Below are positions 13,801 through 46,173 of a stretch of DNA of 64,000 nt, piece by piece (positions within the stretch are counted from its first letter, which is position 1; each line of letters begins with the position of its first letter). Position numbers and translations under genes: made by a program. Below the pieces are notes generated by a model. The model saw only the letters and a program-made list of their open reading frames with translations, was not told the origin of the DNA and searched no databases. The DNA is taken from NCBI RefSeq assembly GCF_006542275.1, contig NZ_CP041217.1, forward strand, positions 558,001 through 622,000. The letters run 5' to 3'. The stretch comes from Saccharibacillus brassicae. GTDB lineage: Bacteria; Bacillota; Bacilli; Paenibacillales; Paenibacillaceae.

Positions 13801-15192
13801 ACGCTCCCCGTTACCGATCACTTCTTCCGTTAATCGTACAAAGTATTCGGTCATCCGCTTGATCGTTGAGTCATGGTAAAGGTCAGGATTGTACTTCATA
13901 TTAAGTTGGAAGCGATCGCCGTGCTCAAATACTTCTAACGCAAGTCCGTATTCTCCTTCCTGATGAATCTCCTCCACTAGCTCAAAATCTAGAGCGTTAT
14001 GATAATCCGCAAACTGCTTCATCTGGCTGGAAGAAATAAAATTTTGATAGAAATATCCGACCTGGAATACCGGCGCATTCGATATCGAGCGAGGCAAATT
14101 CAGTTCTCTTACCATTGCAGAGAACGGATAGTCCGAATGATCCATTCCGTCGAGCATCGTCAACTGTAACTGTTCAGCAAACTTCGTAAAGCCTTCCTCT
14201 TCGTCAATTCGACTACGAATTGGAATCATGTTGATGAAATAACCGATTAACGACTCGAATCTCTCTTCCGGCCTTCCTAAGCTTGCCATTCCGACAATCA
14301 GCTCGCGCTGATTTGAATATTGATGTAGCAGCACCTTAAACACAGCTAGGAAAAAAGCCGGCAGACTGATGCGCTGAAGTTTGGAAAACGATTTGATTTT
14401 ATCTTTAAGCTCGGACGGAATAGAAACGCGATGCGTCTTCCCTTTAAATGTGGCTGCAGAATGACGCGGCAGATCGGTTGGGAGGTCTAAGATCGACAGT
14501 GTACCCGACAATTGCTGCTTCCAGTAGGCACGATGCTCTTCCCCTTTCCTGCTTGCCAGCATTTCCTGTTCCCAATCGATAAAATCATAATAGTGTGAGG
14601 AAGAGGAAACGCTTGTTAGCGATTCCCCCTTTGCAAGAGCAATATAAGCATCCAATAAGGACTTTACGAGAATTGCAACTGAACTGCCGTCAAAAATAAT
14701 ATGGTGGACATTGATTAACACCCAGTGCTCGGTCTCGGATCGCTCGAACACATGAACTCGCATTAATGGACCTGCATTAAACGAGAAGGACTCGCTAGCC
14801 TTCGTACGAATAAATGGGATAATCTCTTCATAAAACAAATGGGAAATATCCCCTCTCGTGATTGCTAGTTTCTGTGATTGCCGAGAGGTTTGAAAAGGAA
14901 CACCGTTTTCCTCTTCAATGACAGTCTTTAATATCGGATGCTGCTCCAACATATACTCCAGCGCTTGCCTGAACAAATTAACATCCAGTCGTTTTCGAAT
15001 ACGGAAGCAGATCGGCAGATTGTAGGCGCTCATGCCGGGTGCTACTTTCTCCAGCATCCATAGACCCTTCTGTCCCTCGGATAGCGTTTTTTTTGCCAAA
15101 AATTGAGGGGTCAGCTCTTGAAGCTTTTGACGTAGCTCGGATGTTGATAATTTGCCTTCTCTATACTTGTCCAACAACTCTTTCGCTATCAT
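7855..15192 (-). CDS. Hybrid NRPS/PKS: C-A(Gly)-PCP-KS-DH-KR(N-terminal part)
   Basis: ATG 15192 is preferred because it forms a TAATG overlap with the upstream stop behind an AGGAG site; an in-frame ATG lies 7 codons earlier. Residue numbers below count from that earlier ATG. The order is: condensation domain (about 40-480) with HHIIFDG (170-176); adenylation domain (about 495-1000) with SGSTGNPKG and GPTETT; PCP (GGDS, Ser1046); KS (from 1129) with Cys1299, HGTGT and NIGHLD; DH (about 1745-2030); and KR from about 2040. The A-domain specificity residues read D-I-L-Q-L-G-M-I-W-K, one change from a known glycine code, so glycine is predicted. In the DH, HxxxGxxxxP has His in place of Gly (His1774, His1778) and the second-motif Asp is Glu1945, so activity is uncertain. 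The KR has a GVLDD motif (B-type) and ends abruptly after NWPYWEEGG; the rest is in the next gene. Confidence 0.93.
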   Translation of the reverse strand: MIAKELLDKYREGKLSTSELRQKLQELTPQFLAKKTLSEGQKGLWMLEKVAPGMSAYNLPICFRIRKRLDVNLFRQALEYMLEQHPILKTVIEEENGVPFQTSRQSQKLAITRGDISHLFYEEIIPFIRTKASESFSFNAGPLMRVHVFERSETEHWVLINVHHIIFDGSSVAILVKSLLDAYIALAKGESLTSVSSSSHYYDFIDWEQEMLASRKGEEHRAYWKQQLSGTLSILDLPTDLPRHSAATFKGKTHRVSIPSELKDKIKSFSKLQRISLPAFFLAVFKVLLHQYSNQRELIVGMASLGRPEERFESLIGYFINMIPIRSRIDEEEGFTKFAEQLQLTMLDGMDHSDYPFSAMVRELNLPRSISNAPVFQVGYFYQNFISSSQMKQFADYHNALDFELVEEIHQEGEYGLALEVFEHGDRFQLNMKYNPDLYHDSTIKRMTEYFVRLTEEVIGNGERALGQYPLLSAEEEQTILLNWNATEITYSKNKCVHELFEEQVRKTPEATAVIYENVSLTYRELDERSTKLAIYLQRQGVKPDSLVGISFERSLHMIVGLLGILKSGGAYVPLDPEYPSERLSYMIEDSQISIVISQSALMNKLNELLSNEVTAIPLDTYWETIEKTASGQVVMQKPSGSDHLAYVIYTSGSTGNPKGVMIPHVALTNFLQSMGRKPAITSEDKLLAVTTYCFDIAGLELYLPLISGAACYICSTAKQKNVELLQQEIKVVRPTIMQATPAMWTALFLYGWRNEEQIKILCGGEALPERLKQFFLETNSEVWNMFGPTETTIWSTLKQIKPNEPITIGKPIANTQIYILNDRMMPVPVSIPGELYIGGDGLARGYLNLPKLTSERFIDNPFQPGTKLYRTGDSARWLAGGEIEYLGRIDNQVKLHGFRIELNEIETRLNLYPGIRESAVVIHNHQEHVQLRAYYVRSGQERHCDLVLKELRRYMKKWLPAHMVPSVFTEIESIPLTPNGKVNRLELSKRNEVQPDRVAMNAMSESETEQIIVAIWKDVIGVDEISMEDGFFDAGGDSFTAVAAADRISRKLDCEIKVTNLFEHANVRELSKFILDLKSEGQLHVQVKSLPEAIQTPLYPTGKNSKGGNQQHEYPAYVEDSMAIIGISCQFSDANNYRQFWENLREGKESVRLLSEEELNELNIDKQLIENPSYVPIQLTIDGKELFDPEFFKISPKDAEMMDPQMRLLLLHSWKAVEDAGYRAQDIPNTAVYMSSSNNFYQAPDDPKQVHVVDDADTYVSWILGQAGTIPTMISYQLGLKGPSFSVHSNCSSSLAGMYSAFQSLRSGESDYALVGASTIHSSTSAGYVHMPGLNFSGDGHLKAFDASADGMIGGEGAAVIVLKSAKKAIEDGDNIYALLRDIKLNNDGSDKVGFYAPSIKGQANVIQSTLESTKIDPETIGYIEAHGTGTKLGDPIEIAALSQIYNQYTTKRQFCGIGSVKTNIGHLDTAAGLAGCIKVALSLYHNQIPASLNFKEANREIDLRHSPFYVVDQLQSLENRPHPYRAALSSFGIGGTNAHAIFEKYTEMKPVESLAESDYGLSYLIPLSARNDDRLKAYALELLHYMRSGNRHPNLSDIAFTLQVGRETMSSRVIFLVNDTEDLIGKLEAYVEGKMNIDNCFEKQAKQAEASIQWFERDEDSTELIGKWIMKDKKKKLAMLWVNGLNLDWTLFYNNAPRPRRVSLPTYPFAQERYWKAESSTKPVAAIAKEAAQKLHPFIDRNTSDFVAQKYTTTLTGNEFFLVDHVIHHQKVLPGVAYIEMGRAAGELAAKRKIHKIKQIVWARPIIVGTSRDMEIVLTPLDHEIEFKVCTYEQEQQVIHAQGKLEVHPDMDTERNIEQSHEIFDIESCLERCSDRIEHTDFYESNASADVYQYGPTFRPIKALYYNESEAISRIELPVEREGNFDAFTLHPSLLEGCLQTIVGLLQGRDTSPFMPFSIDEVEVIRPFPKQCYVYATRTDQDSNKTGASKFNLNLYDPQGRIVAFIRNYSIRTITTTLETGPSTSDKLETLYYHNSWEKATLELHPGNISGPLLIFTDSEQARDAFKSDFPIILVKPGEAFKDGLNDNYVINPERQDDYRKLLSDLKQKDRLPSQIVHMWSHHSSSYELDVVMNEGIYSLFYLTKSLTEVAPYEKVKLLLIYNEESTIASALSEAISGFAKTVRLEYPKLAYKIVRLQSEAVLTEHIAAAEFAAEDGDEIRYTEEGRFVKRLKEGNFEQETTDKPMPFRNNGVYLITGGMGGIGLVLAKHLASTTQARLALIGRSSLDDEKQTLLEELESLGSEVLYIQADMFVREEVESALAQIRARFQALHGIIHCAGVLDDKLIVNKSYEEMKAVLAPKVNGTIWLDEASKEESLDFFILFSSVSHLGNVGQSDYAYANSFLNSFAEYRENLQIRNKRSGKTISINWPYWEEGGVRNAIK

Positions 15193-18100
15193 TATCCATC
15201 TACTCCTATACATTTTTCTAGATCATCAAGCTTGATAATGCCTTGAATAAACTTCTCCATTGCTTCGATAACTTCTAGATCTTTGTATTCGCGCTGCATG
15301 TTTTCTTTAGTATCCTGATTGTTATGTTGACTAGTTCCCAGTTTTGGAACCAAGTATGCTGAAATGGAACGAATCGTTGGGCACTGAAGAAGTTCGCGAC
15401 CTGAAATCGTGAGATCGTAATGTTGTTCGACATTCCGAATAAATTTCATCATCAGAATCGAATCTACACCATAGTCTTGCAGGTCACGATTCACGTTGAT
15501 ACTTTGTTCAGCGATTTCGAGCTTCTCTGAGAAAAACCCGATGAGATACCTCTCGAGCTCTTCCTGAGTTGACATCACGACGTTGACCAAAGCATTATCA
15601 TCCACTCGAACTTCCTCATTCGACTTATCACGCTCCGTTAAACGTCTTTTTGTTTCCGCTGGAATCCAATAACGTTCCTTTTTGAACGGATAGGTCGGTA
15701 ACGGGATGAGCCGCGCTCTATCCTCATTAAATAATGCATTCCATGCCACTTTGCCGCCATTTACCCAGTGTATGGCGATGATGTCGAGATTTCCGCTCTG
15801 CACAAACTGTTGTACCAGCGACTCTTTTTCATTCATAAAGGAAAGCGCTTTTACTTGTAATGCCTCCTCTGCGTTGCCGGTAAAAATCGGAACTACGCTA
15901 TTGATCTGTTGACTGCCCTGATCGGCTTGCAAGTAATCATTCAGCCCCTGAATAAGTTCTTCTTTGCCTTTCGTTACAATGGCTAACCGACTCGGCATCG
16001 CTTCCCTTCCAGATTGAAGCGTATAGGCAAGGTCGGACAATGAGAGATGATCAGCCATGGAAATGTGATCATGCATCTGCTTTGCAACGGCATGAAGTCT
16101 TTCACGATCTGCAGCCGAAAAAATAAAAATTCGGCTTTGATCTTCAGCGATATGCTCATTCGATTCCTTCGAAGGATCGATATACTCTTCTATAACAGCA
16201 AAGGCATTCGTTCCGCTATTCGCGGATGTACTGATCGCACCCAGGCGCGATTGATCAGCGCATCTATTCCATGTCTGATCGCTTGCACTCGCCAGAAACG
16301 GCGCTTTTGAAAAATCAATATCAGGGTTACTCGTATTGAAATTATGCAGACCCAACATCGTCTGCTCTCTCATTGCCACCAGCATCGTTATTAAACTGAC
16401 GATCCCCGAAGCAGCAAACGTATGTCCGATTAACGGTTTAATCGAACTAATATAACCTAATGGCTTTTCAGATGAATAGCTCCCAAACGCTTTGCGCAAG
16501 CCGTCAATTTCTGCAGCATCTCCCAGTTTGGTCCCTACGCTATGCGAAATCATATATTGGATACCTGAAGGATCGATCTGGTATTTATCCAGCGTGTCGC
16601 TAATCAGCTCCGCTTGCCTGATCGGATTTGGCGCCATCATACCATGGCCTTTCCCGTTATAGTTGACACCACTGCCTTTGATGCAACCGTAAATATGATC
16701 CTTGTCGCGAATGGCCTTAGATAAAGGCTTGAGCAAAACGGCGGCAACAGCTTCACTCGGCACCATACCGTTTGCGCGGTCATCAAATACATGAGACTTC
16801 CCCGTAGGGGAAATCAAATCTAACATACTCATTCCGATATGCACTGATGGTGAGACGAACAGGTTGATACCACCAACTAGAGCCATTTCGCAATCGTCCT
16901 GGCGCAAAGCTTGGCAAGCTTGATGAAGGGCAACCAGACTGGAAGAGCAAGATGCCGTAATCGATAAATTAGGACCTTTCAAATCTAGTAAATAGGCAAT
17001 ACGAGCGGATAGAATGGCATTCTGATTGCTGTAAAACTGTCCCTGCTGCTTCACCATAAATCCATAATCACCTTCTTCAATCCCTACGTACACGCCGCAC
17101 GATTTCCCTTTTATTCTCTCTTCCATATACCCTGCATCTTCTAGCGCATGCCACGCCTCTTCCAGAAACAAGCGCTGGCATGGATCCATGATATGCGCTT
17201 CCTTCGGTGAAATTTTAAAAAATAACGGATCGAAGCGATCGATATCGGTAAGAAATCCTCCCCATTTCGAAGGACTTCTTCCAACTTCACCCGATGCTTC
17301 TCCATTATAGTCCCGCCAATCCCACCGATCTTTCGGAATCTCAGTAATGCTTTCTTTACGATGCTTCAGATTCTGCCAAAGCTTCTCCACCGAATCCGCC
17401 TGAGGGAATCGCCCACTCATCCCAATAATGGCGATTGGCTCAATTAATTTCTCCATGTTGGAGTGGATGTGGTCGAGATCCAATCCTTTATCTTTGCGCT
17501 CTTGTGGGGTATTGTCACTTTCGATCTCAGCTTTCCTTTCATTCAGTTCAATTTCCCCCTGATAAAAATGTTCGAGCGTTTCTTTATGATCCTGCACCAA
17601 ATATTCGCTAATCTTGCCGATCGTGGAATAACCGAGTAGTGAGGATGGCGTAATCTCAATGCCGTATAAGCTCGTGATCCTTCCAGCAAATTCGAACAAA
17701 TTGATGGAGTCAAAGCCGTATTCTAACAAATGCTCGTCCACGTCCAGTTTCTCGACAGGCACATGATGCAGCTGGCTGATTGCTTCTTTCAAGTCCCGCT
17801 CCACGAATCGCACGACGTCAAATGCTTCATTTGCTTTGCTGTTGCTGGTGTTTGAGAATGCAGGAGATTTGAAACGAACGATTTCTTGCTCCTGTTCCTG
17901 CTGTAATCTTAAAAATTTGTACACCATGCTCCTTTGGCCTGTCATAACCAAGTGCTGCGATTGAGGCGCCATCAAGATACGCTCAAAGATGGACAGTCCC
18001 TCTTCAGTTTCCAAATAACGCTGGCCACTAGATTTCAAGTATTTTTCGTTATTGTCCTGATCGAATCCCATGCCACCATCCCGCCACAGCGGCCAGTTGA

Positions 18101-21100
18101 TTACAAGAGTTTTGCCCAATACTTCCTGTCTCGCCTCCAGCTTGTTTCTATATCGGGTATAGGCCATTTGAAAGCGGTTCCCGACAGCATAGTCGCAAGT
18201 GCCGAAATCTCCCATAATAGCGGCAGACGAAGAAAAATAACAGACGAAATCAAGCGGTATCCCCTGCAGAAGTTCATCCAGCACGAGCGTTCCATTAATC
18301 TTAGGAGAGATGACCTGCTCAAAGTTTGCAATCTCTTTCTTGAAAATACTTTGAGGATCGACTAGTCCTGCGGCGTGGATAACACCGTCTATATTCCCGA
18401 ATTTTCGTCTCGCTGTCTCCAGCCCATCATTCATCCGCTTCTTGTCGCAAGAATCCGCCTGAATATAGTGAACTCTGCCGCCTATATTCTCGATTTGTCG
18501 GATGAGTTCCAGCTTTGCGTCATTCAGTTTTGACCTTCCGCTCAAGATCAGATTAGCACTGTAATTCTGTGCGAGGTGTCTTGCAAAAATAAGCCCAAGC
18601 TTGCCGAGTCCGCCGGTTATAAAATAGGTGCCTCCGGCTTTCAGCGGAACCGTCCCTGGGGCTATGCTCGTCTCTCTCATTTTGCATTCGTATCGTTGCC
18701 CTTCTTCATACAGCACGCTTTGGACGCTGTCCGCTGCCTCCAGCTCTTTGTATAGCCGCATCATTATGTCTTCAGTTAGCTCTTCTGGTTTCACATGCTC
18801 TTCCTGCTGGATGACTGCCTTCATGCGCGTCTTCGATACCATCGGTCCGATAGACCGTTCGAAGCCAATCCACGACTCAAGATAGCAACGCTCACGTTCA
18901 TTTCTATACGATGCACCCAGCAGAAGCCTTTCTGGCTCCAATTTAGCAGATGCGATCGCTTGTAAAATATAGACGATACTGCTGTAGTCCTCTATACATG
19001 CCCGATCTTCATACGGCCAAAGGTAAAGAACGGCAGAAATTTCGTTATATGTGGCTTTTATGCTACGGAATGCTTCTTCATACGCTTGCTTTTTATTCCT
19101 GTCAATGTAAAACGTCTGCTCATAATCGTTCCGAAGACCCGTGTGTTGGGACAAGAACACAATATTGGCTCTTGGATTCCGAGTTTGAATGTACGTCTTG
19201 ATTCTGTTCTGATTACCCGGCTCCGAGAGAAAGCATACGATAGTTTTCAATTCAATTGCCCGATAATCAAATAAAGGATTTTCTTCCCAATCCTCGTTAA
19301 ACAACATGGTTTCAACATGTTCTTTCTGCTTGTCATCATTCATTTCTAATAGTGCTGAATCGGAGGCCGAGCAATGACGGGCAACAACTTCCTCGGTATT
19401 GCGCCTGCCCCCCTCTTCATTGATCTGAATCCAGCATCGCTCTTTGGCAAACGGATACGTAGGCAATGAGATCCGCTTCGGCTTCCCATTACTGTAGAAA
19501 CGCTCCCAGTCAATTTTTGCGCCATTCACCCATAGATCCAATAATTGTCCCGCGTCGCGGAGCTCTAGATACCGATATGCTGCATCAAATATCTCTCTAC
19601 TTGCCACCGACCGTGCCGGTCCCCCTTTTAACGCTTTGGCCGGACTGCGGTAGATATCCTCATTGTTTTCGCCACCTTCCAGATAGCGCTCTAACTTGGT
19701 CTCCAGTTCATATAATGAGGTTGCCGTCACTGCCAACCGGGCATCCATACTTCCGCGACCAACCTGCAGCGTATATGCGATATCCGTCAAGTTCTTATTC
19801 AAATACTGACCCTTTTCCAAAGCCTGAACAAACTGATGGACATATTCTTTTAATCTGCTATCGTCCTTTGCCGACAAAACAAACATCATTGGATTTTGAT
19901 CTTTGCTGTTTGGTCTAGAATCAGGGTTTACCTCTGGGAGATATTCCTCGATGACCAGATGCACGTTTGTTCCGGTTGCTCCGAACGAATTGATCCCTGC
20001 GCATCGCGGCTGATTCGATGCCGTTTCCCACGGCTTTAAAGTTGTATTTACAAGAAAGGGACTGTTCTCGAAAGACATTTTGGAACTTCCATTCTCATAA
20101 TTCAAGGTCGGAGGAATTTGCCCATGCTCGATCGATAACAGTACCTTAATGAGCCCTGCAATCCCAGAGCCGAAGAAAGCATGACCGATATTACTTTTTA
20201 AGGCCCCCAGCGCACAATAACCCGTGTTTGAGGTGAATTTCCGGAAGGATTCCTTCAGCGCTTCATATTCTATGGCGTCGCCTAGTTTCGTACCCGTTCC
20301 GTGTGCTTCAAACATCGTGATATTCGCAGGATTGATATTGAATTTCTCGTATATACTGGTTTGAAGGCGGCTTTGTGCCAATCCGCTCGGAGCAGTCATT
20401 CCATTCGTTTTGCCATCCTGATTCATGCCCCAGCCCCGAATAACCCCGTAGATATGGTCATTGTCTTCAATCGCCTTGTCGAGTAGTTTGAGAACAACAA
20501 CCCCAATCGCTTCAGCAACTACGGTCCCGTTCGCCCGCTCATCGAAGGTGTGGCAGAGACCATCAGACGACAAGAGCAGGGATTGACTTGAACCTATCAT
20601 GACATTCGGTGTCGTATATACCGAGCCACCGCCAACAATTGCGCTTTCACAGTTGCCCAATACGAGGCTGTCGCAAGCTTCCGCAACAACCGTTAAGGTC
20701 GAGGAGCAAGACGTATCTATCGTCATCGCCGGTCCAACTAAATTCAGCAAATAGGAAAGCCGACATGCGGAATACGAATCTGTCGGAAGGTAATAGGTTG
20801 GGATCTCTTGTTGTATCGTCATGGAGTAATCCCCTTTGGCGCAGGCAAACACACCCCAAGGCTTGCCACTCAGATCCTCTGGACTATAGCCTGCATCTTC
20901 AATCGCTTTCCACGCTTCTTGAATGAACAATCGCTCGCTAGGGTCCATCAGCTCCGCATCCCGCGGCGATATTTTAAAAAATAGCGGATCGAATTTATCG
21001 ATATCCGTTAGAAACCCGCCCCATTTCGAGTAGGTTTTACCCGGTGTTTTCGGATTAGGGTCGTAATAATCGTTTATATCCCAGCCACGATCGCGAGGCG

Positions 21101-23255
21101 CCTCCCTTACACTGTTGCGTCCGGTTTTCAAGTTTTCCCAAAATTGCTGTACGTTGTCCGCATCCGGAAATCTCCCTGACATCCCAACAATCGCAATGGA
21201 CGGGAGAGAAGTTCGTTTATCATTGTCCGGGACGGGTCTTCCCTCATGCAGGGATGCATGCATGCGTTTCGTAAAAATGTTCTTGCAATGATCATAGAAA
21301 ATCTTTACGCTTTGATCTTCATGCAAAATATCGAAATGGTTATCTCCAGCTAAAATCGTCGTTTTCAGCTTGGGCAATAAGGAAGACCATCCTTGAAGAA
21401 GCGGCATAAACGACCCCATTTCATGCTGGATTCGCTCCAAATAGTCCGGGTTCCAGAAGGAATGGGATACAGCATCAGCAGATTCCGTTCGGAACAACAC
21501 GGCTGTCAGATCATTAGGACGTGGCAGCTTCTGGACCTTGTAATTCTGAATAGCTCGCAAATTGGATTGATGCACCTCTGACATAGAGCGCAATTTGAAT
21601 GCCAGTTCTTCTTCAGAATGCTTCAATCCTTTTTGTTTGCAAAGCTTGACGACATGCGAGACCAGACCATCATCAGAAACATCGCGAATATCATGGTCCG
21701 TCATTTGATAGAAGTTCCAATCGATCGTAACGTCAGGTCGCTTCCCTTGGAAAGCTTCATTCCGATTCAAAAGTGTGAGTAATAAAAAATTCGCATTCAT
21801 TAATAGGTTGTTTCTGAAGGTCGTTTGGAAAAATTCTGTCTCCCTACCTGTAATACAGGGCGACTCCACAAGAAGTAGCGAGTCGACTTGTTTGTCCTCC
21901 ATTTGCAATTGCCGTGTCATTTCATAAGCTACGGTCCCGCCAAATGAAAAACCGGCCAGGTTGTATGGCCCTTCCGGCTGTACGGCTTTAATTATTTCGC
22001 AATAGTATCTAGCCATCTCATGAACCGACGTGAAGGGTTGATGTTCAGAGGACAGAAAGCCACGTGCTTTAATAGCGATAATACGAAATTCGCCGTCCGT
22101 TTGGCTTGAGATTCGATTGTAAATGCCTACATCTCCAGAAATCGGATGAATCCAGAACGTGCATGGCCCGTCTCCGTCTGCGGATAAAGGTACGATTTCC
22201 GGATATTGCCGAATAAGATGGCGTAGACGTTTTTTTAACGGTTGTTCGGCGGATGCAGAAGGTGGAGCATTCTCTCCGTCGCCACACAACCGAAGAAGTT
22301 CACCCAAACTTCGATCATTGAGATCATGGATCGATATTGCAAGTCCGGACTTGTCGTGCATAAAGTTCAATACTTCTGCGAAGTCCAGGGAATCGAGACC
22401 AAGCGTTTGTAGGCTCTGCCGTTCATCCAGCTGCATGGTATCTAATTTTCTATAGAGCAGCTCCAATAGCTGTTTTTTGGCTCCTGGTTGTTTCTTTTCC
22501 TGGCTTCTTACCGGTAACTTCCCGCCCCATGGTCGATGATCAACGTCGTATTCAATAAGTACACCATAACCTTGATTCTCATCATCCTTCGGTCTGTAAT
22601 TATCCAACAATCCTAATATCGTTGCCCCGTGCAATTGATGAAATTTTAATATTGGATCTTCGAATAGACCGTTCCGATGAATCTGAACTAAATATTGCTG
22701 AAGGGTAGCGCAATTCGATTTCAGAAAATCACGGCAGCGCGTGACTGCATAAACATGATGGATTTCCTGATGTAAGGAAAAATACTGCAGGATAAATTCA
22801 AGCAACTCACTGCCCCATCCTTTATCTTGATAGAGAGGCATAATATTGAGCGCAATAAACTGAATGCATGAACCTCTTTGATTCCGAAATGTTGAAACCG
22901 TCATCGATTTGACCTTTTTGATGTCGTCCTTCCGGATTCGCTGCGTATAAATGACGCCTCTTACGATTCCCTCATATTCCAATACAAACGTGAAGCAGGC
23001 CGGATCAACTAATCGCTGCTCGATTTCCACTTGGTCAGTTTGAAGAGGAACTGCCCAACAGTCCCCCTCAATTTCCATTAAAGCTTCAATATCTTCCGGT
23101 ACCGCTAGACGGATACAATAATCGCGCCTAACAAAATAGTCGTCATGGTACTTGCCGCTTTTCAGCTGGCTTTCGGCGCTGACATCGGGAAAAAACCGCT
23201 GCGCGGAGGCATGCAGCAGTTTTTCGTTTGAATGTACGTTAAGCATAGCTTTCAT
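15192..23255 (-). CDS. Trans-AT PKS: GNAT-ACP-TE-KS-KR-ACP-KS-ACP
   Basis: The 2687-residue protein opens with a GNAT-type loading domain (about 45-245) like that of CurA and pederin-type pathways, including a near-identical C-terminal stretch around ENQGYGVLIEYD. Then come an ACP (GLDSL, Ser289) and an internal thioesterase (about 350-660; GFSFGG Ser437, Glu464 at the acid position, His640). KS1 (from 685) has Cys850, His985 in HGTGT and His1025. A KR (catalytic part from about 1540) carries LVDP instead of LDD, so it is probably A-type. An ACP (Ser1850) precedes KS2 (from 1939), which has Cys2103, His2238 in an altered HSVGT and His2278. The final ACP has Ser2599, with a short helical tail. 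It starts behind a textbook GAGGAGG and overlaps the upstream gene by 17 bp. A loading unit and a TE in mid-line are highly unusual. Confidence 0.92.
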   Translation of the reverse strand: MKAMLNVHSNEKLLHASAQRFFPDVSAESQLKSGKYHDDYFVRRDYCIRLAVPEDIEALMEIEGDCWAVPLQTDQVEIEQRLVDPACFTFVLEYEGIVRGVIYTQRIRKDDIKKVKSMTVSTFRNQRGSCIQFIALNIMPLYQDKGWGSELLEFILQYFSLHQEIHHVYAVTRCRDFLKSNCATLQQYLVQIHRNGLFEDPILKFHQLHGATILGLLDNYRPKDDENQGYGVLIEYDVDHRPWGGKLPVRSQEKKQPGAKKQLLELLYRKLDTMQLDERQSLQTLGLDSLDFAEVLNFMHDKSGLAISIHDLNDRSLGELLRLCGDGENAPPSASAEQPLKKRLRHLIRQYPEIVPLSADGDGPCTFWIHPISGDVGIYNRISSQTDGEFRIIAIKARGFLSSEHQPFTSVHEMARYYCEIIKAVQPEGPYNLAGFSFGGTVAYEMTRQLQMEDKQVDSLLLVESPCITGRETEFFQTTFRNNLLMNANFLLLTLLNRNEAFQGKRPDVTIDWNFYQMTDHDIRDVSDDGLVSHVVKLCKQKGLKHSEEELAFKLRSMSEVHQSNLRAIQNYKVQKLPRPNDLTAVLFRTESADAVSHSFWNPDYLERIQHEMGSFMPLLQGWSSLLPKLKTTILAGDNHFDILHEDQSVKIFYDHCKNIFTKRMHASLHEGRPVPDNDKRTSLPSIAIVGMSGRFPDADNVQQFWENLKTGRNSVREAPRDRGWDINDYYDPNPKTPGKTYSKWGGFLTDIDKFDPLFFKISPRDAELMDPSERLFIQEAWKAIEDAGYSPEDLSGKPWGVFACAKGDYSMTIQQEIPTYYLPTDSYSACRLSYLLNLVGPAMTIDTSCSSTLTVVAEACDSLVLGNCESAIVGGGSVYTTPNVMIGSSQSLLLSSDGLCHTFDERANGTVVAEAIGVVVLKLLDKAIEDNDHIYGVIRGWGMNQDGKTNGMTAPSGLAQSRLQTSIYEKFNINPANITMFEAHGTGTKLGDAIEYEALKESFRKFTSNTGYCALGALKSNIGHAFFGSGIAGLIKVLLSIEHGQIPPTLNYENGSSKMSFENSPFLVNTTLKPWETASNQPRCAGINSFGATGTNVHLVIEEYLPEVNPDSRPNSKDQNPMMFVLSAKDDSRLKEYVHQFVQALEKGQYLNKNLTDIAYTLQVGRGSMDARLAVTATSLYELETKLERYLEGGENNEDIYRSPAKALKGGPARSVASREIFDAAYRYLELRDAGQLLDLWVNGAKIDWERFYSNGKPKRISLPTYPFAKERCWIQINEEGGRRNTEEVVARHCSASDSALLEMNDDKQKEHVETMLFNEDWEENPLFDYRAIELKTIVCFLSEPGNQNRIKTYIQTRNPRANIVFLSQHTGLRNDYEQTFYIDRNKKQAYEEAFRSIKATYNEISAVLYLWPYEDRACIEDYSSIVYILQAIASAKLEPERLLLGASYRNERERCYLESWIGFERSIGPMVSKTRMKAVIQQEEHVKPEELTEDIMMRLYKELEAADSVQSVLYEEGQRYECKMRETSIAPGTVPLKAGGTYFITGGLGKLGLIFARHLAQNYSANLILSGRSKLNDAKLELIRQIENIGGRVHYIQADSCDKKRMNDGLETARRKFGNIDGVIHAAGLVDPQSIFKKEIANFEQVISPKINGTLVLDELLQGIPLDFVCYFSSSAAIMGDFGTCDYAVGNRFQMAYTRYRNKLEARQEVLGKTLVINWPLWRDGGMGFDQDNNEKYLKSSGQRYLETEEGLSIFERILMAPQSQHLVMTGQRSMVYKFLRLQQEQEQEIVRFKSPAFSNTSNSKANEAFDVVRFVERDLKEAISQLHHVPVEKLDVDEHLLEYGFDSINLFEFAGRITSLYGIEITPSSLLGYSTIGKISEYLVQDHKETLEHFYQGEIELNERKAEIESDNTPQERKDKGLDLDHIHSNMEKLIEPIAIIGMSGRFPQADSVEKLWQNLKHRKESITEIPKDRWDWRDYNGEASGEVGRSPSKWGGFLTDIDRFDPLFFKISPKEAHIMDPCQRLFLEEAWHALEDAGYMEERIKGKSCGVYVGIEEGDYGFMVKQQGQFYSNQNAILSARIAYLLDLKGPNLSITASCSSSLVALHQACQALRQDDCEMALVGGINLFVSPSVHIGMSMLDLISPTGKSHVFDDRANGMVPSEAVAAVLLKPLSKAIRDKDHIYGCIKGSGVNYNGKGHGMMAPNPIRQAELISDTLDKYQIDPSGIQYMISHSVGTKLGDAAEIDGLRKAFGSYSSEKPLGYISSIKPLIGHTFAASGIVSLITMLVAMREQTMLGLHNFNTSNPDIDFSKAPFLASASDQTWNRCADQSRLGAISTSANSGTNAFAVIEEYIDPSKESNEHIAEDQSRIFIFSAADRERLHAVAKQMHDHISMADHLSLSDLAYTLQSGREAMPSRLAIVTKGKEELIQGLNDYLQADQGSQQINSVVPIFTGNAEEALQVKALSFMNEKESLVQQFVQSGNLDIIAIHWVNGGKVAWNALFNEDRARLIPLPTYPFKKERYWIPAETKRRLTERDKSNEEVRVDDNALVNVVMSTQEELERYLIGFFSEKLEIAEQSINVNRDLQDYGVDSILMMKFIRNVEQHYDLTISGRELLQCPTIRSISAYLVPKLGTSQHNNQDTKENMQREYKDLEVIEAMEKFIQGIIKLDDLEKCIGVDG

Positions 23256-26200
23256 TTAACCTCCTCGGTTTCAAATGCGTAGCCATATAGTCTGCGAGCT
23301 TGGAAGTGGTGGAGTAATCAAATATGATCGTATCATTTAATGACAGACCCAACTGACTGTTTAAGGTATGGATGAATTTCCCGACCAGAATGGAATCCAA
23401 CCCAAGTTCCATAAAATTCGCTTCAACATCAAATTCATCGAGATCATCCAAGTATAAAAGGTCAAATAGAATATCCTTGATTCGTTGTTCGATCTCCATT
23501 ACCCCGTATAAAAACTTCGTATCCTCTTCAATTACCACTGGAATAAACCCAGACTCGTTTTCCGGCTCAGCGATAGGAGGAGCTAACGTTTTCTCAGGTT
23601 GAACACTTACACTTAAGATATCATCCAACGAAATAAAGGGTTGGTTTTCGGCTTCGATTTCTCCGGGATGTCTTTGTTCGATTTCATTAGGCCAGAAGCG
23701 CTTTGCTTTGAACGGGTACGTAGGAAGCTCTGGCATATGTTGCGGTGCATAATCGCTATAAAGTTCCCCCCAAGGAATGGAAATGCCGTTTAGCCATAGT
23801 TGCGCTAATGCTGACCAATTCTTTTGGACAATTAGTTGTTCAATCCGGTCGTCATGTATCGGCTCAAGTGAAGCAAACTCTGTACGATGATCCGACTCCT
23901 CGATCAGGAATTTCTCCATGCTTGTGATCAATTCTCCCGTATTGTGAGCAACAACAGCAAATCGACGTTTCATCGGTTCCCGTCTCAATTGCAGTACATA
24001 GGCGAGTCGGCGTAAATCCAGACTAGGATGCTTCTCCAGGTACGCCTTCCAAATCTCCACGTAACTTCTGAGCGTATGACTTGTTTTGGCAGAAAAAACG
24101 AAAAGACTCGGCGTCTCGTCGGTGGATACGTACGTGTTGTCTGTCGGGCTCTCGTATTCTTCCACAATAACATGTGAGTAGACTCCGCCCGCGCCAAAGC
24201 TGTTAATGCCGATACGTCTTGGACTTCTTCCCCCGTCCAGTTCCATCTCCGGCCATTCAGCCAATTTCGTTTCTACCGTAAACGGCAAGGCGTCAAAATT
24301 GATGCTCGGATTCAGCTGCTCCGGCAAACGAGTTGGGCATATTAACTTGTGCTTTAATTGCAAGAGCGCCTTAATAAATTGGGCCATTCCTGATACAGAT
24401 TCCCCATGGCCCAAACTTGCTTTAATCGAACCTAATGTATAGAAATTGTTCTCGCCGTCGCGAGATTTCCCGAATACTTTAGTAATGGCAGACATTTCGA
24501 TAGCATCAACCATCTCCGCGCCACTTGCCGCTGCTTCAATATGCCGGATGCTTCTCGGATCGATGCCGGCCGCGTCCAAAGCCTTTTGGATAACGGCTGA
24601 TTGCTTCACTGGGTCAGGCACATTGTAGCCATTCGTCCTCCCACTATGAGAAACGGCGCTACCTTTGATAACCGCCCAAATATGATCCTTATCTCGTTCC
24701 GCGTCAGACAATTTTTTCAGGACGACTGCTCCCACGCCTTCGGATGGAATAAATCCGTTGCCACCTTTACCGAATACAGTGCTGCTCGAACGATCAGAGA
24801 GTAGACCTCCCTGTGCGAGACTTGTGTAATTGCTCGGATGAGCATATAAGTTTACCGCTCCAACAACAGCCATCGACGTTTCCCCGTGTCGGATACTTTC
24901 ACAAGCCTGATGAAGTGCTGTAAGCGATGAAGAGCACATCGTATCAACTGGAACGCTTGGGCCATGGAAGTCCATGACGTATGATAGACGATTGACCATA
25001 GACGCAAAGGATGTGTTGTAAAATTGATTGGACGTCTCATTCCACAGATTGAAGCCTGTTTTAGTTACGCCACCAAATACGCCAATCTGATTGCGGATAC
25101 TTTCATCCATTTTCGATGGCACATAACCTGCGTCTTCAACTGCTTTCCAGCACTGTTCCAAGAATAGGCGTTCCTGTGGGTCCATTCGCTGTGCTTCGGC
25201 TGGTGAGATGTTAAAAAATAACGGATCGAAATCAGCATACCCTTCCAGAAAACCACCCCACTTGCTGAAACTTTGCTGTTTGGACAATGCTTCTTCGCGG
25301 TTTGGGTTAAAGAATCCGCCCAGCGACCAACGTTCTTCAGACAGCTCTGTAATGCAATTTGTCCCACTTTTCAAGTTGTCCCAGAACTCGTGGATATTCC
25401 TCGCCATTGGGAATCGTCCACTTACACCTATGACGGCTATCTGCTCCTCTTCTTGACTGCCGGAACCAGCGTCATACCTATTCCTTTTTTTCGCTCCAAG
25501 CCTACTCCGGTTCGGTAATAACGTTGGAAACACGTGACTTTCTTCAAAGGGATTTTTCGATATTAAACGTTGAGGTCTTGAAGCATCCTCATCCGATATG
25601 TCATCACCGATCCACTGTGTACATTCATACGGGTATTCCGAAGCCAGATATGTGCTCAAGGCTTCGATGTTTCGGTATTCAAAAAAGATCGTACTGGAAG
25701 CGTCCTTGAAATGATCCGTCAGTTTCTTGTTCAGCAACGTTAGTTTGACAGAATCGACCCCATACGTTTCGAAAGGCTCCTGCACGTTAATTTGATCACT
25801 GCACAGTTTAATGCTTTCTCCAAATAGGACTGTCAGTTTATGGATCGCCTGTTCCTTCAAACGATCGAAGTTGACTTCTCTTACTTGTTTCTGTGGCTGT
25901 TGGGTATTGTCGGCTAATTCGGTCAGTAGTATTTTTACTCTGATTTTTCCCGTGTTCCCCTCCATAACGAGCACTTGATCCTGGTTTTGATCCAGCGCTT
26001 GATAGAGGGCGTTTATACCTGTTTCTGACTTCAGCGGTACCATACCTAGATTGTCGAACATGATTTTTTCGATCTCTTTGTCAACATGCATGCCACCTTG
26101 TTCCCATAATGACCAATTGATCGAAATGGTTCTCCCCTGGCGTTCTCCCTTAGCCACCAACTTATTACGATAACTTGCATAACCATCCATAAAGGCATTG

Positions 26201-29200
26201 GCTGCCGAATAATCTGCCTGCCCCGGATTCCCGAACTCTCCCGCTCCGGATGAGAAGAGAATGATAAAGTCTAGATTCATCCCACTTGTGAACGTATCGA
26301 GGTGGAGTAATCCGGTTACTTTCGGTCCTAACACTTCTGCGAACTCTTCTTCCGATTTATGAATGATTAATTGGTCCCGGATGATACCGGCACTGTGAAA
26401 GATGCCGTTTAACCTGCCATAGTCCTCCACAATTTCGTCTATCAAAGTCTGAACTTGATTTCTGTCCGTTATATCCACTCGCTTGTACTGTACGTTTGCC
26501 CCTCTTCCCTTCAAGGCGTACAACTGGGCTTCTTTCTCTTCAGACAGCGCTGAGCGTCCCGTCAAGATCAGCTTTACGTCTTTAATCGTTCGGCTTATCT
26601 CTTCGGCGAAAATCAACCCTAGTCCTCCAGCCCCACCGGTCAGCAAATAGACGCCGCCTTCCTTCCACGGCTGCTCATCTTTCTCATTTCTATCGGACAA
26701 ACCCGACTCTTCAAAACTCTTCGTATATCTCGCACCGGCTTCATACTTGACCTCTCGGTCTTTCGGGCTGTGGCTGTCCGCTTCCAGCGTCGCTGTAATC
26801 TCTTCTACCTTACTGCCAGCAGGCATTTGAATAATCTGGAACATTAGTTTCGGATTTTCGAGCTGAGCTGTCTTGAGCAGTCCACCCAATCCCCGGAACA
26901 GCTCTCGATCATCGCCTGTAAAGACGACGAGCTGACTGAGAACATGACCTTTCGGCTTGCTCAACAGTATGTTTTGAAGCGCTCCGAATAATTGAATAGC
27001 ATATTGCTCGAATCTGACATGCAGATCGCGTGCCTCGCTTCGGAATATTGTACACCTCACTCCTTTGATCTGGGACTCGATCGCTTCAGAGGACATCGTT
27101 TGGTCCGCTTCACAAAGGAAGATATTGCGCAGCACATACTCAGGTGTTTCTGCTTGAAGAATAACTGACTTCTCCCAAACGGGATGGACCATCATTGATC
27201 CGATAGCAGTCTTACTATCGTCAACGGCTTCCAAGGCTCTAAATCTGAAATTTTTTAGTCTCACCCGGATATTTCCGTTTTCATCGCATAAATCGATGTG
27301 GACGTTACGAACGTTAGTATCGAAATGATTGCTCTCACTCGTGCGCACGATCACCCACATGCTCTCCGTGCAACAGCCCGTCAGCTCCAGCTCTTCCAGG
27401 CTGACAGGCAGCCACGGTTGTGATATCGCTTTGGCTTTTGTCTCACCGTGACTGATCGATAAACCGATCATTGCTTGAATTGCCGAATTCAGTATAGTTG
27501 GATGAAGAATATAGAATTCTGACTCTTCTCTTAACGATTCAGGTAGGACAAGCTTAGCCAAAACACTGCCATTTCCGATGTGCAGATGATCAATCCCTTG
27601 GAGGCCGCTTCCACATTCGATTCCGATGGCGTTTAATTTGCTATAGCATTGGCTCCCACTGAGGACCGTACCACTACATTCAGCTTGAATCCTGTGAAGA
27701 TCCACACGCTCAGGTTGTGAGATTTTCTTCCTCAGGACCAGTTCCGCCCGTCCTTGGCCATGTACGATTTCATCTTGATCCGTCAATCCAGCGCTATAGA
27801 TTTCATAGCCTATCTCATCTTTTTCCACTCGATAAATATCGATATGCAGCTCTCTGCTGCGCTCCTTCGCCGTGAAAGGACTTGACCACGTTATATTTTT
27901 CAAGATGATCGTATATTCTTCTGCCCGTGGTACGGATTCATGAATGGCTGCCCGGATCATCTCCAGGTACGCTATTTCCGGTAACCGTTTTTCTCCCAGA
28001 ATTGCATAGTCGTTCAAAAAAAATTCATTCCCGGTCCATATGCTACTGAATTTTTGTCCATCAAAATTTGATGTATTCCGATGGAGCATCGGGTGCAAAT
28101 AGCCTGCCTTAACGTTAACCGAAGCATCTGATTCTAATTCCGGAAGCCAGTACCGCTCCCGCGTAAAAGGATACGTTGGCAAACTGATTCGCTTCATCTT
28201 GCGATGAATGTGAAGCTTCTCCCAATCCACGTCTATACCCGTGACCCATAATTCCAATAACGTCGAATACTTCTTCCGCTCCACTAATAGTTGAATCACA
28301 TTTTGAAATTCCTCATTCGATTTAAACAGGGTGAGTATATTTCTTTGCTTCTTGCCATTGCCTCTGTAAAGATTGGTAATGTCATGCTTCCCGAGTACGT
28401 ATTTCTCCAGCTTTTCGGTTAGATCGTCCATCGAGCTTACGATGAAGCCCAACCGTTCTTCCATACATTCCCGGCCTACTTGCAGTGTATATGCCATATT
28501 TGCCAAGTGGTTATTATCCAATCGTTCAGCCTTTATCGCTTCTAACAACTGCACCGCCTGCTCCTTGAGGTTTTCTTTTCTTTTAGCCGATAAAAGAATG
28601 ACTGCAGGGTCGTTCACCGTTACCTCAACGGGATTGTCCACTTGGTTTCCTTGCACATATTCCTCGATAATAACGTGGCTGTTAGAGCCACCCGCACCAA
28701 AGGAAGAAATACCTGCGATTCTGGGATATTCCTTCTTTTCCCCATCAATCTCAACAATAGGCTGTTTCCATTCTGCCAATTCCTGTTGAACGCTGAAAGG
28801 GGTTTGCCCGAAATCGATATTGGCATTCAACACCTCCGAATGAAGACTCGGCACGTATTGCTTATATTTCATCTGCAGTAATACTTTCGTTACGCCTGCT
28901 ATTCCTGCTGCCGCCTCCAAATGACCGATGTTGCTCTTCGCAGATCCGATGGAGCAAAAGGCCTTATCTTTTGTGTGCGTTTCAAACGCTCTCGTTAATC
29001 CAGCAATTTCGATTGGATCTCCCAGCGAGGTTCCCGTTCCATGGGCTTCGATATAGCTAATCGTTCTCGGGTTCACATTGGCGTCCGTTATCGCCTTATC
29101 AATAACTTGGGTTAATGCGGCCGGATTGGGAACGGAATATCCGTTCGTCTTGCCGCCGTGATTAACGGCTGTGGATTTAATGACCCCATAGATCTGATCG

Positions 29201-32200
29201 CCGTCAGCAATGGCTTGATTAAGCGGCTTTAACAGTAGGGAGCCCACTCCTTCACCGGGCACGTAGCCATCTCCCCCGTCCCCGAAACTTTCGCATTTGC
29301 CTTTACTGGACATGAAGTTATACTGGCTCAAGAATAAATACTTGTTCGGATGTAAGGAAAGATTGACGCCACCGGCAATGGCAAGTTTGCATCTCCCTAA
29401 CTTGATACTATCGCATGCTGCATGCAATGCCGTTAAGGAAGAGGAGCACATGGTATCAATCGCCATGCTTGGTCCGTTAAAGTTGCAAAAGTATGAGACG
29501 CGATTCGCGATGGAGGAGGCGATTCCCGATAACGCGACAGGGTTACCTCTCATTTGGCTCTGTATGCCAAGAAACTGGTAGTCCATGAAGGTAGACCCTA
29601 CAAAAACTCCGATATTCCCGTTCTCGACTTTGCTCAGAGCCTCTCTCGTATACCCAGCATCCTCTAACGTTTCATAGACGCACTCCAAGAACAATCGCTC
29701 TTGCGGGTCCATATATTCCGCATCTTCAGGCGAGATATTGAAAAACAATGGATCGAATTTATCGACATCATTGATAAACCCTCCCCATTTGCTATTGATC
29801 TTTCCAGTTTTAAACTTGTCCGCATCATAATGGCGCTTGTAATCCCAACGTTCCTCAGGAATCTCAACGACACAGTCCTTTCCGAGCTTTAGATTTCCCC
29901 AGAATTCATGGATGTTGTTAGCCTGCGGATATCGGCCGGAGAGGCCTATAATGGCGATATCCATATGACTGCCGTCATGCCCTTGCGCCACATCCCTATG
30001 GTAATCTGTCCTCATTGGCTCAAGGACGCTTGATAATATTGCAGTTTTTTTGTGCTCCTCACCCTGGTCGTTGGATAAGTTATCAAGGGAAGCGTGGATT
30101 TCGAACAATTCCATCAGCTTTTCGCTGTATGTCTGCATGAAATAATCCGCTAATGCCTGGATGGTTTGATATTCAAAGAATATCGTCAGCGAAATCGGTC
30201 CAAGTGTATTATTCACTTCTTCTGCCAACTGCTTAATCATGACGGAGTCGATGCCATAGCTCTCCAACGAAACGTCCGATTCAATCCGGTCGATCGGGAT
30301 GCTGCTGACCATTGCGAGCAGCTGCTTACAATAAAGGACCGTCTTCTCTTTCATAATCGTCGGCGTAAGCTGTGCCAAATCCGCTTGAGCTGCAATAGGT
30401 TCTTTTCGTTCGATGATTGGAGCTGTCGGTTTGACTTCCTCTGTACGTTTCGGTACATGTGCTCCGATTAATTCTGCGCTAGCATTGACACCTGATATCC
30501 AGTAACGCTCCTTCGCAAACGGATAGGTTGGCAGGCTGATTCGTTTTGGCGTCGTGTCCATGTGAAGGCTTTCCCAATTCATATCCAGACCCTTCACCCA
30601 GAAACCAAGCAGCTTCCCATACTTCCCTTTACTAATCCAGGAATCGATCGCCTTCTGCAAATCATCATCTGCTTTGAAGATGGCTAACGTATCCTTCTCT
30701 CTTATGACACGGCCAACGTACAGTTCTTCCACGTCATCATCGCCAGCCAAATATCCATTTAATTTCCGCTCCAGCTCATGGATCGAGGTAACGGTCGTAC
30801 CCAATCGTACTTCCATCGCTTCGCGCCCGACTTGCAAGGTGTATGCAATATCCGGTAGATCTTGGTCCTCATACTTTTCCAGTCTGATTTGCCGTAATAG
30901 TTGACTTGCCCGTTCTTTGAGATTCTCCTCCTCCTTCCCTGACAATACAATGACTGCAGGGTTGTCAGTCGTAATGATTGGTGCGACCTCTGATTTTTGC
31001 TCAGGCATGTATTCTTCGATCACAAGATGGGCGTTTGATCCCCCTGCACCAAAGGCCGATATCCCCGCAAGTCTAGGCACTTCCCTCTTGGCACCGTCCT
31101 GCACAATGACTGGCCTTTTCCATTCTTCCAGCTCATGTTGCACTTTGAACGGCGTCTTCTCAAAATCGATGTTCGGATTTGATTCACTGGAATGCAAACT
31201 TGGCACGAGCTTCCTGTACTTCATCTGCAGCAGCACTTTTGTCACGCCTACGATTCCCGCCGCACTTTCCAGATGACCTATATTACTTTTGACCGAACCG
31301 ATCGAACAGAATTGCTTATCGACCGTTTGATCTTCAAATGCCTTGGTCAGTGCTGTTATTTCAATTGGATCCCCGAGCGCCGTTCCAGTACCGTGAGCTT
31401 CGATGTAACTGAAATGTCTGGCATCTACATTCGCATCTTTCATTGCTCTTCTGATCATGCTCGCCTGTGCATTCGGATTCGGTACGGTGTAGCCATTGGT
31501 CCTTCCGCCGTGATTGATTGCCGATCCCTTGATTACGCCGTAGATCTGGTCCCGGTCCTCAATCGCTTTGGACAACGGTTTAAGTAGAATGGAACCGACA
31601 CCTTCACCTGGCACATAACCGTCGCCGCCGGTACCGAAGCTTTCGCATCTTCCTTTACTTGACATAAAATTACCGCGGTCAAGCAACAAGTATTTATTCG
31701 GGTGAATCGAAATATTAACGCCGCCAGCAATCGCTAGCTCGCATTCTCCTTGATGAATGCTTTGGCAGGCCAGGTGGATCGCAATCAATGATGAGGAACA
31801 CATCGTATTTAATCCGATGCTCGGGCCATGAAAGTTACAGAAATAAGAGACGCGATTCGCAATAGAAGACGTTATCCCGCTAAGCGCAACCTTGTGACCT
31901 TTCGCTTGTTCCTGCGCTCCATAAAGCTGGTACTCGTCATACATGACGCCAACGTATACACCTACATTCCCTTCCATGCCGGACCCTTGAACTTTACTTA
32001 AAGCCTCTCTCGTATATCCCGCATCTTCCAACGTTTCTAGAACGCATTCCAAAAATAACCGCTCCTGAGGATCCATGAACTCGGCTTCGCGTGGTGTAAT
32101 ATTAAAAAATAACGGATCAAATCGATCGACATCATCTAAAAATCCACCCCACTGTGCCATCGACTTATTTTCATCTGCAAAAAGACGATAGTCCCAGCGC

Positions 32201-44334: not shown

Positions 44335-44350
44335 CTTGTAGCTCCTTTCA

Positions 44351-45016
44351 TCATTTTCTACGAATTGCAAAGGTTAAACCGTCCCCAATAGGCATTAAGC
44401 TCATAGTAACTCGGTCATCAAGATGAACTCTTTTATTGACTTCACGGATGGCACAGACGTCGCGTCCTTGATTGAACTCATTAATGACACTGCCACCCCA
44501 AAGTACATTATCGAGTAAGATCAATCCTCCTACTCTTACAAGTTTCATTGCCAATTCGTAGTAATCAAGGTAACCTTCCTTATCCGCATCAATAAAAATG
44601 ATATCGTAGAAATTCGCTTTCTGCTCATTTAAAAGCTGACGCATCGACTCAGAAGCTGGAGCGATTATTAAATCGATTTTATCTTCCACTCCAGCTTGAC
44701 GCCAATAATTTCGAGCCATTTTACACCATTTTTCATCCACATCAAGACTCGTTATTTGACCACCCTCAGGCAAAGAGAGCGCCATCCATAATGCTCCATA
44801 CCCAGTAAAGGTTCCTACTTCAAGAATCTGCTTCGCATTCATTAATTCAACTATCATCGCAAGAAATTGTCCTTGCTCTGGCGGAGTCTGCATTGCGGAC
44901 ATAAGCATTCTATTCGTTTCTTCCCGGAGTTCCTGCACAACCGCAGGTTCTCTAAGTGAATTGATTAGAAGATACTCGTATAGCTCATTCGATAAATCTA
45001 ACGTTCTTTTCCCCAT
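44351..45016 (-). CDS. SAM-dependent O-methyltransferase, catechol/caffeoyl-CoA type
   Basis: The 221-residue protein has the class I methyltransferase layout of the caffeoyl-CoA/catechol OMT family. The SAM-binding loop is LEVGTFTGYGALWMA, the acidic beta2 end is SLDVDEKW, and metal-ligand regions are FIDADKEGYLDYY and LLDNVLWGG. Such enzymes methylate catechols with a divalent metal; a subgroup (FkbG-type) methylates hydroxymalonyl-ACP. The gene upstream probably makes 3,4-dihydroxybenzoate, so methylation of protocatechuate to vanillate or isovanillate is the best guess. Methylation of a later catechol or ACP-bound hydroxyl is also possible. It starts behind GGGAGG and lies 28 bp after the AsbF-like gene. 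Confidence 0.88.
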   Translation of the reverse strand: MGKRTLDLSNELYEYLLINSLREPAVVQELREETNRMLMSAMQTPPEQGQFLAMIVELMNAKQILEVGTFTGYGALWMALSLPEGGQITSLDVDEKWCKMARNYWRQAGVEDKIDLIIAPASESMRQLLNEQKANFYDIIFIDADKEGYLDYYELAMKLVRVGGLILLDNVLWGGSVINEFNQGRDVCAIREVNKRVHLDDRVTMSLMPIGDGLTFAIRRK

Positions 45017-45899: not shown

Positions 45900-46173
45900 A
45901 AGTTTCCCTCCTAATAATTGAATCATTATTCTTCCTCAAACAGATTCCTCGTTCGGTTTTTAAAAATTTTCAAAAAAAATAGTACAATGTTAAGCGAACC
46001 TTTCTTCAGATTCATAAAGAGTAGCTTAGAAAGCGAGGAAGTATTTACGCGAAATTTTATCCTGTCATATCATTTATTGAAATTGAACATCAAATATTCC
46101 CAGAGTCAATGCTTGATTACATTCTTATAAATCACCTCCTATTAAATCAACGTTTATGAGTATTCCTCTGCTT
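45900..46173 (-). other. AT-rich intergenic stretch with orphan Shine-Dalgarno
   Basis: Between the MATE gene's hairpin and the AsbF-like gene there is no convincing gene. A perfect AGGAGGTGAT site (minus strand, about 46128-46137) is followed 9-10 bp on by ATG and at once by TAA, so no peptide is made from it unless a non-ATG start is used. It may be the relic of a deleted or mutated small gene. Confidence 0.35.

Follow-up and report, generated by a model that had tools for sequence, protein, structure and literature searches.

Why should a GNAT loading unit and a thioesterase (TE) lie together in the middle of a trans-acyltransferase (trans-AT) polyketide synthase/nonribosomal peptide synthetase (PKS/NRPS) assembly line? 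The question is raised by a locus of Saccharibacillus brassicae that we analyzed in a window of 64,000 nt (contig NZ_CP041217.1, positions 558,001–622,000; coordinates given alone are those of the window), which is part of a single-contig genome of 5.62 Mb. Read on the minus strand, the line begins at 45926 and ends at 4020 (Table 1), and a first-pass annotation had noticed that its "fourth megasynthase" starts with GNAT, acyl carrier protein (ACP) and TE domains, placed behind a protein ending in a non-elongating ketosynthase (KS0) and an ACP, and before another ketosynthase (KS), here KS6. We confirmed this order in an open reading frame (ORF) of 2687 aa; it is the fourth ORF of the line here, but its counterpart is the third assembly-line protein in the relatives, an apparent frameshift splitting loader and KS1 in the window. 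Judging from sequence comparisons, it is quite likely that the locus encodes a single co-linear line, in which GNAT-ACP and a TE of the branching acyltransferase type (TE_B) would O-acetylate the growing chain in line.

The Internal Thioesterase Groups With a Probable Acylating Domain

The internal TE contains the motifs GFSFGG (S437) and DNHFDI (H640), plus E464, and its Ser and His are retained in the three orthologues compared. About 2,000 residues follow it, so that the domain is embedded in the line and does not form a protein C-terminus. Its closest solved relative is 7r0x (deposited as 'Polyketide synthase'; match over residues 6–320 of 341), and the second PDB match, the TE 1xkt from a fatty acid synthase (FAS), is far weaker and shorter (E 1.8e-14, around 90 residues). 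Identity is highest to a TE from Ensifer canadensis (40.5% over 306 aa), lower to 7r0x (29.8%) and lowest to the last TE of the same cluster (24.8%). A tree built from 41 TEs places 7r0x in one clade (96/89) with the internal TEs from the window, from its orthologues in genomes G497 and G556 and from Ensifer; the adjoining clade (99/98) comprises 21 C-terminal-type trans-AT TEs, including the last TE of the cluster. The site of the catalytic Asp is occupied by Glu in all five members of the first clade, and by Asp in 18 of the 21 C-terminal-type TEs.

We take 7r0x to be the acylating TE_B domain of OocS, from oocydin biosynthesis, reportedly described by Fraley in 2022. This assignment is supported because the Ser motif of 7r0x, GYSMG, equals that named for the OocS TE in PMC4552970; according to the same paper, a Ser-to-Ala mutant did not produce oocydin A, and its authors considered the TE and a C (condensation) domain as candidates for lactonization and O-acetylation. 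Together, these comparisons suggest that the internal TE is not a releasing TE, an assignment disfavored because the 21 C-terminal-type TEs form a clade that does not include it, but probably a distinct, acyl-transferring one. The annotation was right on the presence of a TE, with the correction that its type is a distinct one.

The GNAT-ACP Unit Has the Features of a Loader, but Not Its Position

Besides the CurA GNAT 2ree, the GNAT domain matched in phmmer searches the PKS-related 7ucl/7uci (2e-36) and GphF 6mfc (8e-30). GNAT domains of the CurA type are decarboxylases that convert malonyl-ACP to acetyl-ACP. We take W249, T355, H389 and R404 to be the catalytic residues of CurA, a numbering that agrees with the printed CurA sequence (spacings 106/34/15); the four sites correspond to W67, T172, H206 and R221 in the window, conserved in the three orthologues. 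The GNAT and TE motifs are intact, as first annotated. Pfam PP-binding found three stretches in the 2687-aa protein, of which only the best one, the ACP of the GNAT unit, was located.

By kinship and catalytic residues the domain is of the CurA type; by position it is not a loader, being mid-line and followed by a TE rather than by a KS. Each of the 12 other CurA-type GNATs that we examined leads to a KS rather than to a TE (eight genome loci, viewed in about 1.5 kb beside each, and four plasmid loci, viewed in 8 kb; this set leaves aside one more strong GNAT, the second match in G110, of 38%, and weaker single-domain GNAT matches of around 25% identity). In 11 of them an ACP separates the GNAT from the KS, with two ACP matches in L011; in L063, ACP queries gave none in this interval, and the KS there is split between frames.

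KS6 Lies Apart From GNAT-Primed Ketosynthases in Trees

These twelve loci would be in agreement with the possibility, raised by the annotation, of two separate assembly lines, the internal TE releasing the first chain and GNAT-ACP priming a second, acetyl-started line at KS6; TEs usually release, and the domain order can be read that way. We nevertheless regard this as quite unlikely: the internal TE groups with 7r0x, away from the C-terminal-type TEs, it sits behind the GNAT's own ACP and not behind ACP5, and KS6 falls outside the group of GNAT-primed KSs. Its identity to 11 GNAT-primed KSs is 34–42%, versus 50–54% to 27 other KSs, which were chosen as the best matches from the family and are thus close by selection. 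We built two KS trees, one from all 53 rows, with 11 GNAT-primed KSs, and another from 38 rows, with 10 of them, after leaving out 15 hand-chosen rows (near-copies and some long branches). In both trees, KS6 is apart from the KSs that follow GNAT-ACP loaders, which disfavors it as an acetyl-primed KS; in the 53-row tree, 10 of the 11 GNAT-primed KSs form a clade (99), and the remaining one, from L062, pairs with the KS that comes after it in the same cluster. Among the 27 closer KSs, that of L077 follows an ECH domain and that of L083 a domain with a FabD_helical_ins match, and we take both to be mid-line. Two others of the 27, the KSs from L098 and L100, which follow an A-ACP loader (A, adenylation), group with KS1 and not with KS6.

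The Preceding Module Should Present a Hydroxyl

The upstream megasynthase ends in KS5-ACP5, and KS5 reads IEAAASG in place of IEAHGTG in the three orthologues, with the HGTG His lost and the Cys conserved, as corresponds to a KS0. Given the intact motifs of the ketoreductase (KR) KR4, the loss of the catalytic Asp from the dehydratase (DH) DH4 and the KS0 nature of KS5, a beta-hydroxyacyl chain should reach ACP5 without extension. The motifs of KR4 and DH4 therefore predict that the chain should offer a hydroxyl acceptor to the TE. If all the modules act as read, the acetylated chain would contain an aryl-dienoyl unit, a keto group and a beta-acetoxy acyl thioester.

A similar arrangement exists in a PKS from plasmid pT173a of Ensifer canadensis (L048), which contains the TE most similar to that of the window and shows the order KS-KR-ACP, KS0, ACP-ACP, TE_B, KS; the KS before its tandem ACPs is a KS0 (SAANGS), and Pfam gave no DH in its KS-KR-ACP module. 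This protein thus appears to repeat independently the logic of KR, KS0, ACP, TE_B and KS seen in the window. Additionally, the KS after its TE_B groups with KS6 in both KS trees (97 with 53 rows, 98/96 with 38 rows); this tie is suggestive, because the Ensifer KS sits on a long branch and itself no longer has the HGTG His. The 53-row tree also tied Ensifer KSb to KS5, which we consider a meeting of long branches and do not claim, using for this KS only the KS0 motif.

This context bears on two other explanations. One is that the TE_B acylates from a donor other than the GNAT unit, or on another hydroxyl, such as a phenol on the aryl starter or a hydroxyl that KR6 sets later. The OocS TE_B is termed promiscuous in the title of a paper, and the Ensifer protein itself lacks a GNAT; conversely, in the window GNAT-ACP is directly fused to the TE, with its catalytic residues intact, and KS0-ACP and an altered DH stand immediately before the unit, all of which makes this explanation quite unlikely. 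The other, also proposed in the annotation, is an in-line editing unit, where the TE would hydrolyze stalled acyl groups and GNAT-ACP would be a bystander or a decoy. Type II TEs act in this way, and the internal TE matches TEs from FAS and NRPS too, more weakly; we deem editing very unlikely, since by far the nearest solved relative is reportedly an acylating TE, and since the KS0, the altered DH and the Ensifer parallel would be left unexplained.

Conservation of the GNAT-ACP-TE Unit

Orthologous clusters occur in G497 and G556, from the same family and from other genus groups; the contig scan gave an orthologous cluster in Paenibacillus dendrobii only. The stretch of 680 aa spanning GNAT-ACP-TE recurs with 96% identity in G497 and 81% in G556, and the string is therefore not an assembly artefact. 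Of 14 window genes compared, all have counterparts in G497 and 13 in G556, in conserved order; there was no counterpart of the phosphopantetheinyl transferase in the G556 stretch compared. The six ORFs of the assembly line are 92–97% identical in G497 and 73–82% in G556. The full-length stretch was found in 1 of 16 genomes from the genus, 3 of 394 from the family, 1 of 398 from the class and 1 of 388 from the phylum (overlapping sets, each count including the own genome, with the best candidates scored: two per class genome and up to three per family or phylum genome). Among 72,556 plasmid records, eight matched at E 1e-20, none of them covering 80% of the query. Neither these searches nor the 12 other GNATs examined showed the GNAT-ACP-TE_B fusion outside the three orthologous clusters.

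GNAT and TE are constrained with respect to G556, with dN/dS values of 0.154 for the GNAT, 0.063 for its ACP and 0.088 for the TE; the values against the much closer G497, from few changes, are 0.265, 0.489 and 0.151, respectively. The latter values for GNAT and ACP, and the unusual mid-line place of the unit, could be expected from a relic, that is, a loading unit gained by recombination and now out of use. This is extremely unlikely in view of the conservation of every catalytic residue in the three species and of the low dN/dS (0.063–0.154) against the more distant G556.

A Model for In-Line Acetylation

Several observations weigh against a single line with acetylation by GNAT-ACP and TE_B. 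The function of TE_B and the identity of 7r0x are taken from the titles of oocydin papers and from PMC4552970, and 29.8% is a low identity between the internal TE and 7r0x. In the C-terminal TE of the cluster, Glu likewise takes the place of the catalytic Asp, the three exceptions among the 21 C-terminal-type TEs being this TE in the three species, which weakens Glu464 as a mark of the TE_B type. In DH4, G556 retains the His, so that only the loss of the Asp is common to the three orthologues; Pfam dehydratase models still match this domain, and its dN/dS against G556 (0.279) is only slightly over those of DH2 (0.230) and DH1 (0.195), too weak a difference for a proof of decay. With tandem ACPs but without a GNAT, the Ensifer protein would use a different donor or one located elsewhere; its KS after TE_B reads EANASGS, without the HGTG His that KS6 conserves, and is a long branch (2.4), with 42.3% identity to KS6 versus at most 40.5% to other KSs. 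Lastly, the dN/dS values of the GNAT and its ACP against G497 are raised on few changes, as indicated above.

On balance, a single line with in-line acetylation explains the locus best. In this model, a trans-AT would load malonate onto the ACP of the GNAT unit, and the GNAT would decarboxylate malonyl-ACP to acetyl-ACP, as expected from the CurA family. KR4 would reduce the chain, the defective DH4 would leave the beta-hydroxyl in place, and KS5 would hand the chain, unextended, to ACP5. By analogy with the OocS TE_B, Ser437 of the internal TE would then take the acetyl group from the GNAT-ACP and pass it on to the ACP5-bound chain at its beta-hydroxyl, and KS6 would accept the acetoxy chain for further elongation up to the C-terminal TE. 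Among the options listed in the first-pass annotation, the best fit is that of an acetyl-ACP donor for modification, in which the TE would act as the TE_B enzyme; a TE joining two chains as an ester would be correct as to the ester chemistry, although the simplest donor is the acetyl group of its own GNAT-ACP, with no second chain.

We give even chances to a more specific proposal, that an assembly line acquired a complete loading didomain in its middle, joined to an acylating TE, resulting in a self-contained acetylation cassette that has its own dedicated acyl-ACP donor and needs no acetyl-CoA. If so, malonate would enter and an acetyl ester on the chain would result; donors for TE_B would be programmable in cis, and encoded branches would arise from the same arrangement with a longer donor line.

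Other Features of the Cluster and Its Surroundings

From 45926 to 4020, the line follows the order of Table 1. Upstream of it there are a free-standing acyltransferase, the phosphopantetheinyl transferase, a MatE transporter and a NusG-like protein. The AsbF-like gene presumably encodes a 3-dehydroshikimate dehydratase for supply of the aryl starter, and its 3dx5 match, together with the methyltransferase of the caffeoyl-CoA/catechol type, points to an aryl starter for the line. The loaders from L098 and L100, which belong to two further genomes from the family, contain an A domain around 50% identical to that of the window, followed by an ACP and by the KS grouping with KS1, as related aryl-type starts. 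Loader and KS1 protein are a single ORF in both G497 and G556, and the split over two frames at 41290–41370 could be a real frameshift or a sequencing error. KS7 (residue 2235 of its protein) reads HSVGT instead of HGTGT in the three orthologues, with the His retained; this odd KS is directly followed by an ACP and then by the NRPS module. DH8 might be another altered dehydratase, with HVIHHQKVLP (G to H) and LLEGCLQ (D to E). We make no claim on promoters, with 22 promoter-like sites found versus 22.6 expected by chance.

Table 1. Annotated features of the assembly line in the window, listed from 45926 to 4020 with single domains under their protein, and the free-standing acyltransferase.
Feature	Coordinates	Strand	Evidence
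AsbF-like enzyme	45045..45926	-	3dx5 AsbF, E 6e-30
O-methyltransferase, caffeoyl-CoA/catechol type	44351..45016	-	Pfam Methyltransf_3; PDB relatives
Loader A-ACP-ACP behind an N-terminal stretch of unsettled type	41362..44370	-	PDB/NCBIfam matches start near residue 200
Megasynthase KS1-DH-KR-ACP-KS2-DH	34136..41299	-	Domain matches
Upstream megasynthase KR-ACP-KS3-ACP-KS4-DH-KR-ACP-KS5(0)-ACP	23239..34188	-	Domain matches
DH4, probably dead dehydratase	27220..28095	-	Catalytic Asp to Asn in 3/3; His to Tyr in 2/3
KR4, motif-intact ketoreductase, should set the acceptor beta-hydroxyl	26119..26655	-	GGAGGLG and Tyr/Asn motif, 3/3
KS5, non-elongating KS0	24169..25431	-	HGTG His to Ala, 3/3 orthologues
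ACP5, likely carrier of the chain to be acetylated	23287..23487	-	ACP match and motif
Megasynthase GNAT-ACP-TE_B-KS6-KR-ACP-KS7-ACP, 2687 aa	15192..23255	-	ORF without internal stop; domain matches
GNAT domain, CurA type	22533..23129	-	phmmer 2ree, E 4.5e-41; residues 43–241
ACP of the GNAT unit, GLDSL	22281..22472	-	Pfam PP-binding; residues ~262–325; motif in 3/3 orthologues
Internal thioesterase, TE_B type	21261..22223	-	7r0x, E 3.7e-40; residues ~345–665
KS6, KS directly after TE_B	19926..21188	-	Cys-His-His intact
Downstream megasynthase C-A-PCP-KS8-DH-KR (PCP, peptidyl carrier protein)	7855..15213	-	Domain matches
Last megasynthase ACP-KS9-ACP-TE	4020..7868	-	Domain matches
C-terminal TE, likely the chain-releasing one	4059..4946	-	Among C-terminal-type TEs in tree
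Free-standing acyltransferase (trans-AT)	47858..48796	-	Pfam Acyl_transf_1

The cluster lies in a low-GC island, with values around 0.45–0.48 in the PKS genes, mostly 0.33–0.42 in the right flank and around 0.37 in the left one (window 1–59000 and G000:C1:538000-558000), compared with 0.57–0.61 in five 20-kb samples from the host genome. Its right border is near 59000, close to a tRNA-Val gene (57556–57627), and its left border is beyond the 538000–558000 stretch. The identity of 92–97% of the assembly-line proteins to those in a different genus-level group (G497:C3:3198000-3257999; L049–L051), together with the low-GC island, suggests a recent horizontal transfer. The NusG-like protein (49860–50441), reminiscent of the LoaP antiterminator of polyketide operons from Bacillus, shares only 59–61% identity with the corresponding proteins of G556 and G497, the PKS genes being far closer. 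Near the edge of the island there are genes for an SU10-type phage major capsid protein (53273–54184) and a RadC-like protein (52264–52872), perhaps a prophage remnant.

Comparison With Known Systems

The annotation had stated that no described pathway has this order. Within the reach of our search, this remains true of the exact string: literature on the string, on TE_B and citing oocydin (including PMC9600693, PMC11260071, PMC8302727 and PMC10204066), covered mostly by title and with the key oocydin papers and antiSMASH/MIBiG outside the search, yielded no paper on GNAT-ACP-TE. Nevertheless, internal acylating TEs, such as that of OocS, have reportedly been described. It seems from this locus that an enzyme for the start unit can serve again, mid-line, as supplier of a decorating group, and that an internal TE behind a KS0-ACP need not signal chain release when reading clusters. 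It would also provide a compact, natural system for on-line O-acetylation, with donor and transferase in one polypeptide, as a testable part for polyketide engineering.

As described in PMC7794379, the FrsA TE of FR900359 likewise forms an ester between two molecules, without release; it differs in belonging to an NRPS and in moving a whole acyl-amino-acid side chain onto a finished macrocycle. The GNAT didomains of CurA and GphF are of the same GNAT family as that of the window, with the same four catalytic residues and an ACP behind the GNAT. These didomains start a line and feed a KS, whereas that of the window lies in the middle of the line, ahead of a TE. A close parallel is the oocydin trans-AT PKS, whose OocS TE_B is reportedly an internal acylating TE, according to work of 2022 by Hemmerling and by Fraley. 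Both TEs share the fold of a trans-AT PKS TE, a clade, the Ser/Glu/His catalytic columns and a proposed role in O-acetylation of the chain; they differ in their low identity and in the position of the window TE behind its own GNAT-ACP donor. Acylation by TE_B is reportedly known from oocydin, and its fusion to a GNAT-ACP donor looks like a rare variant.

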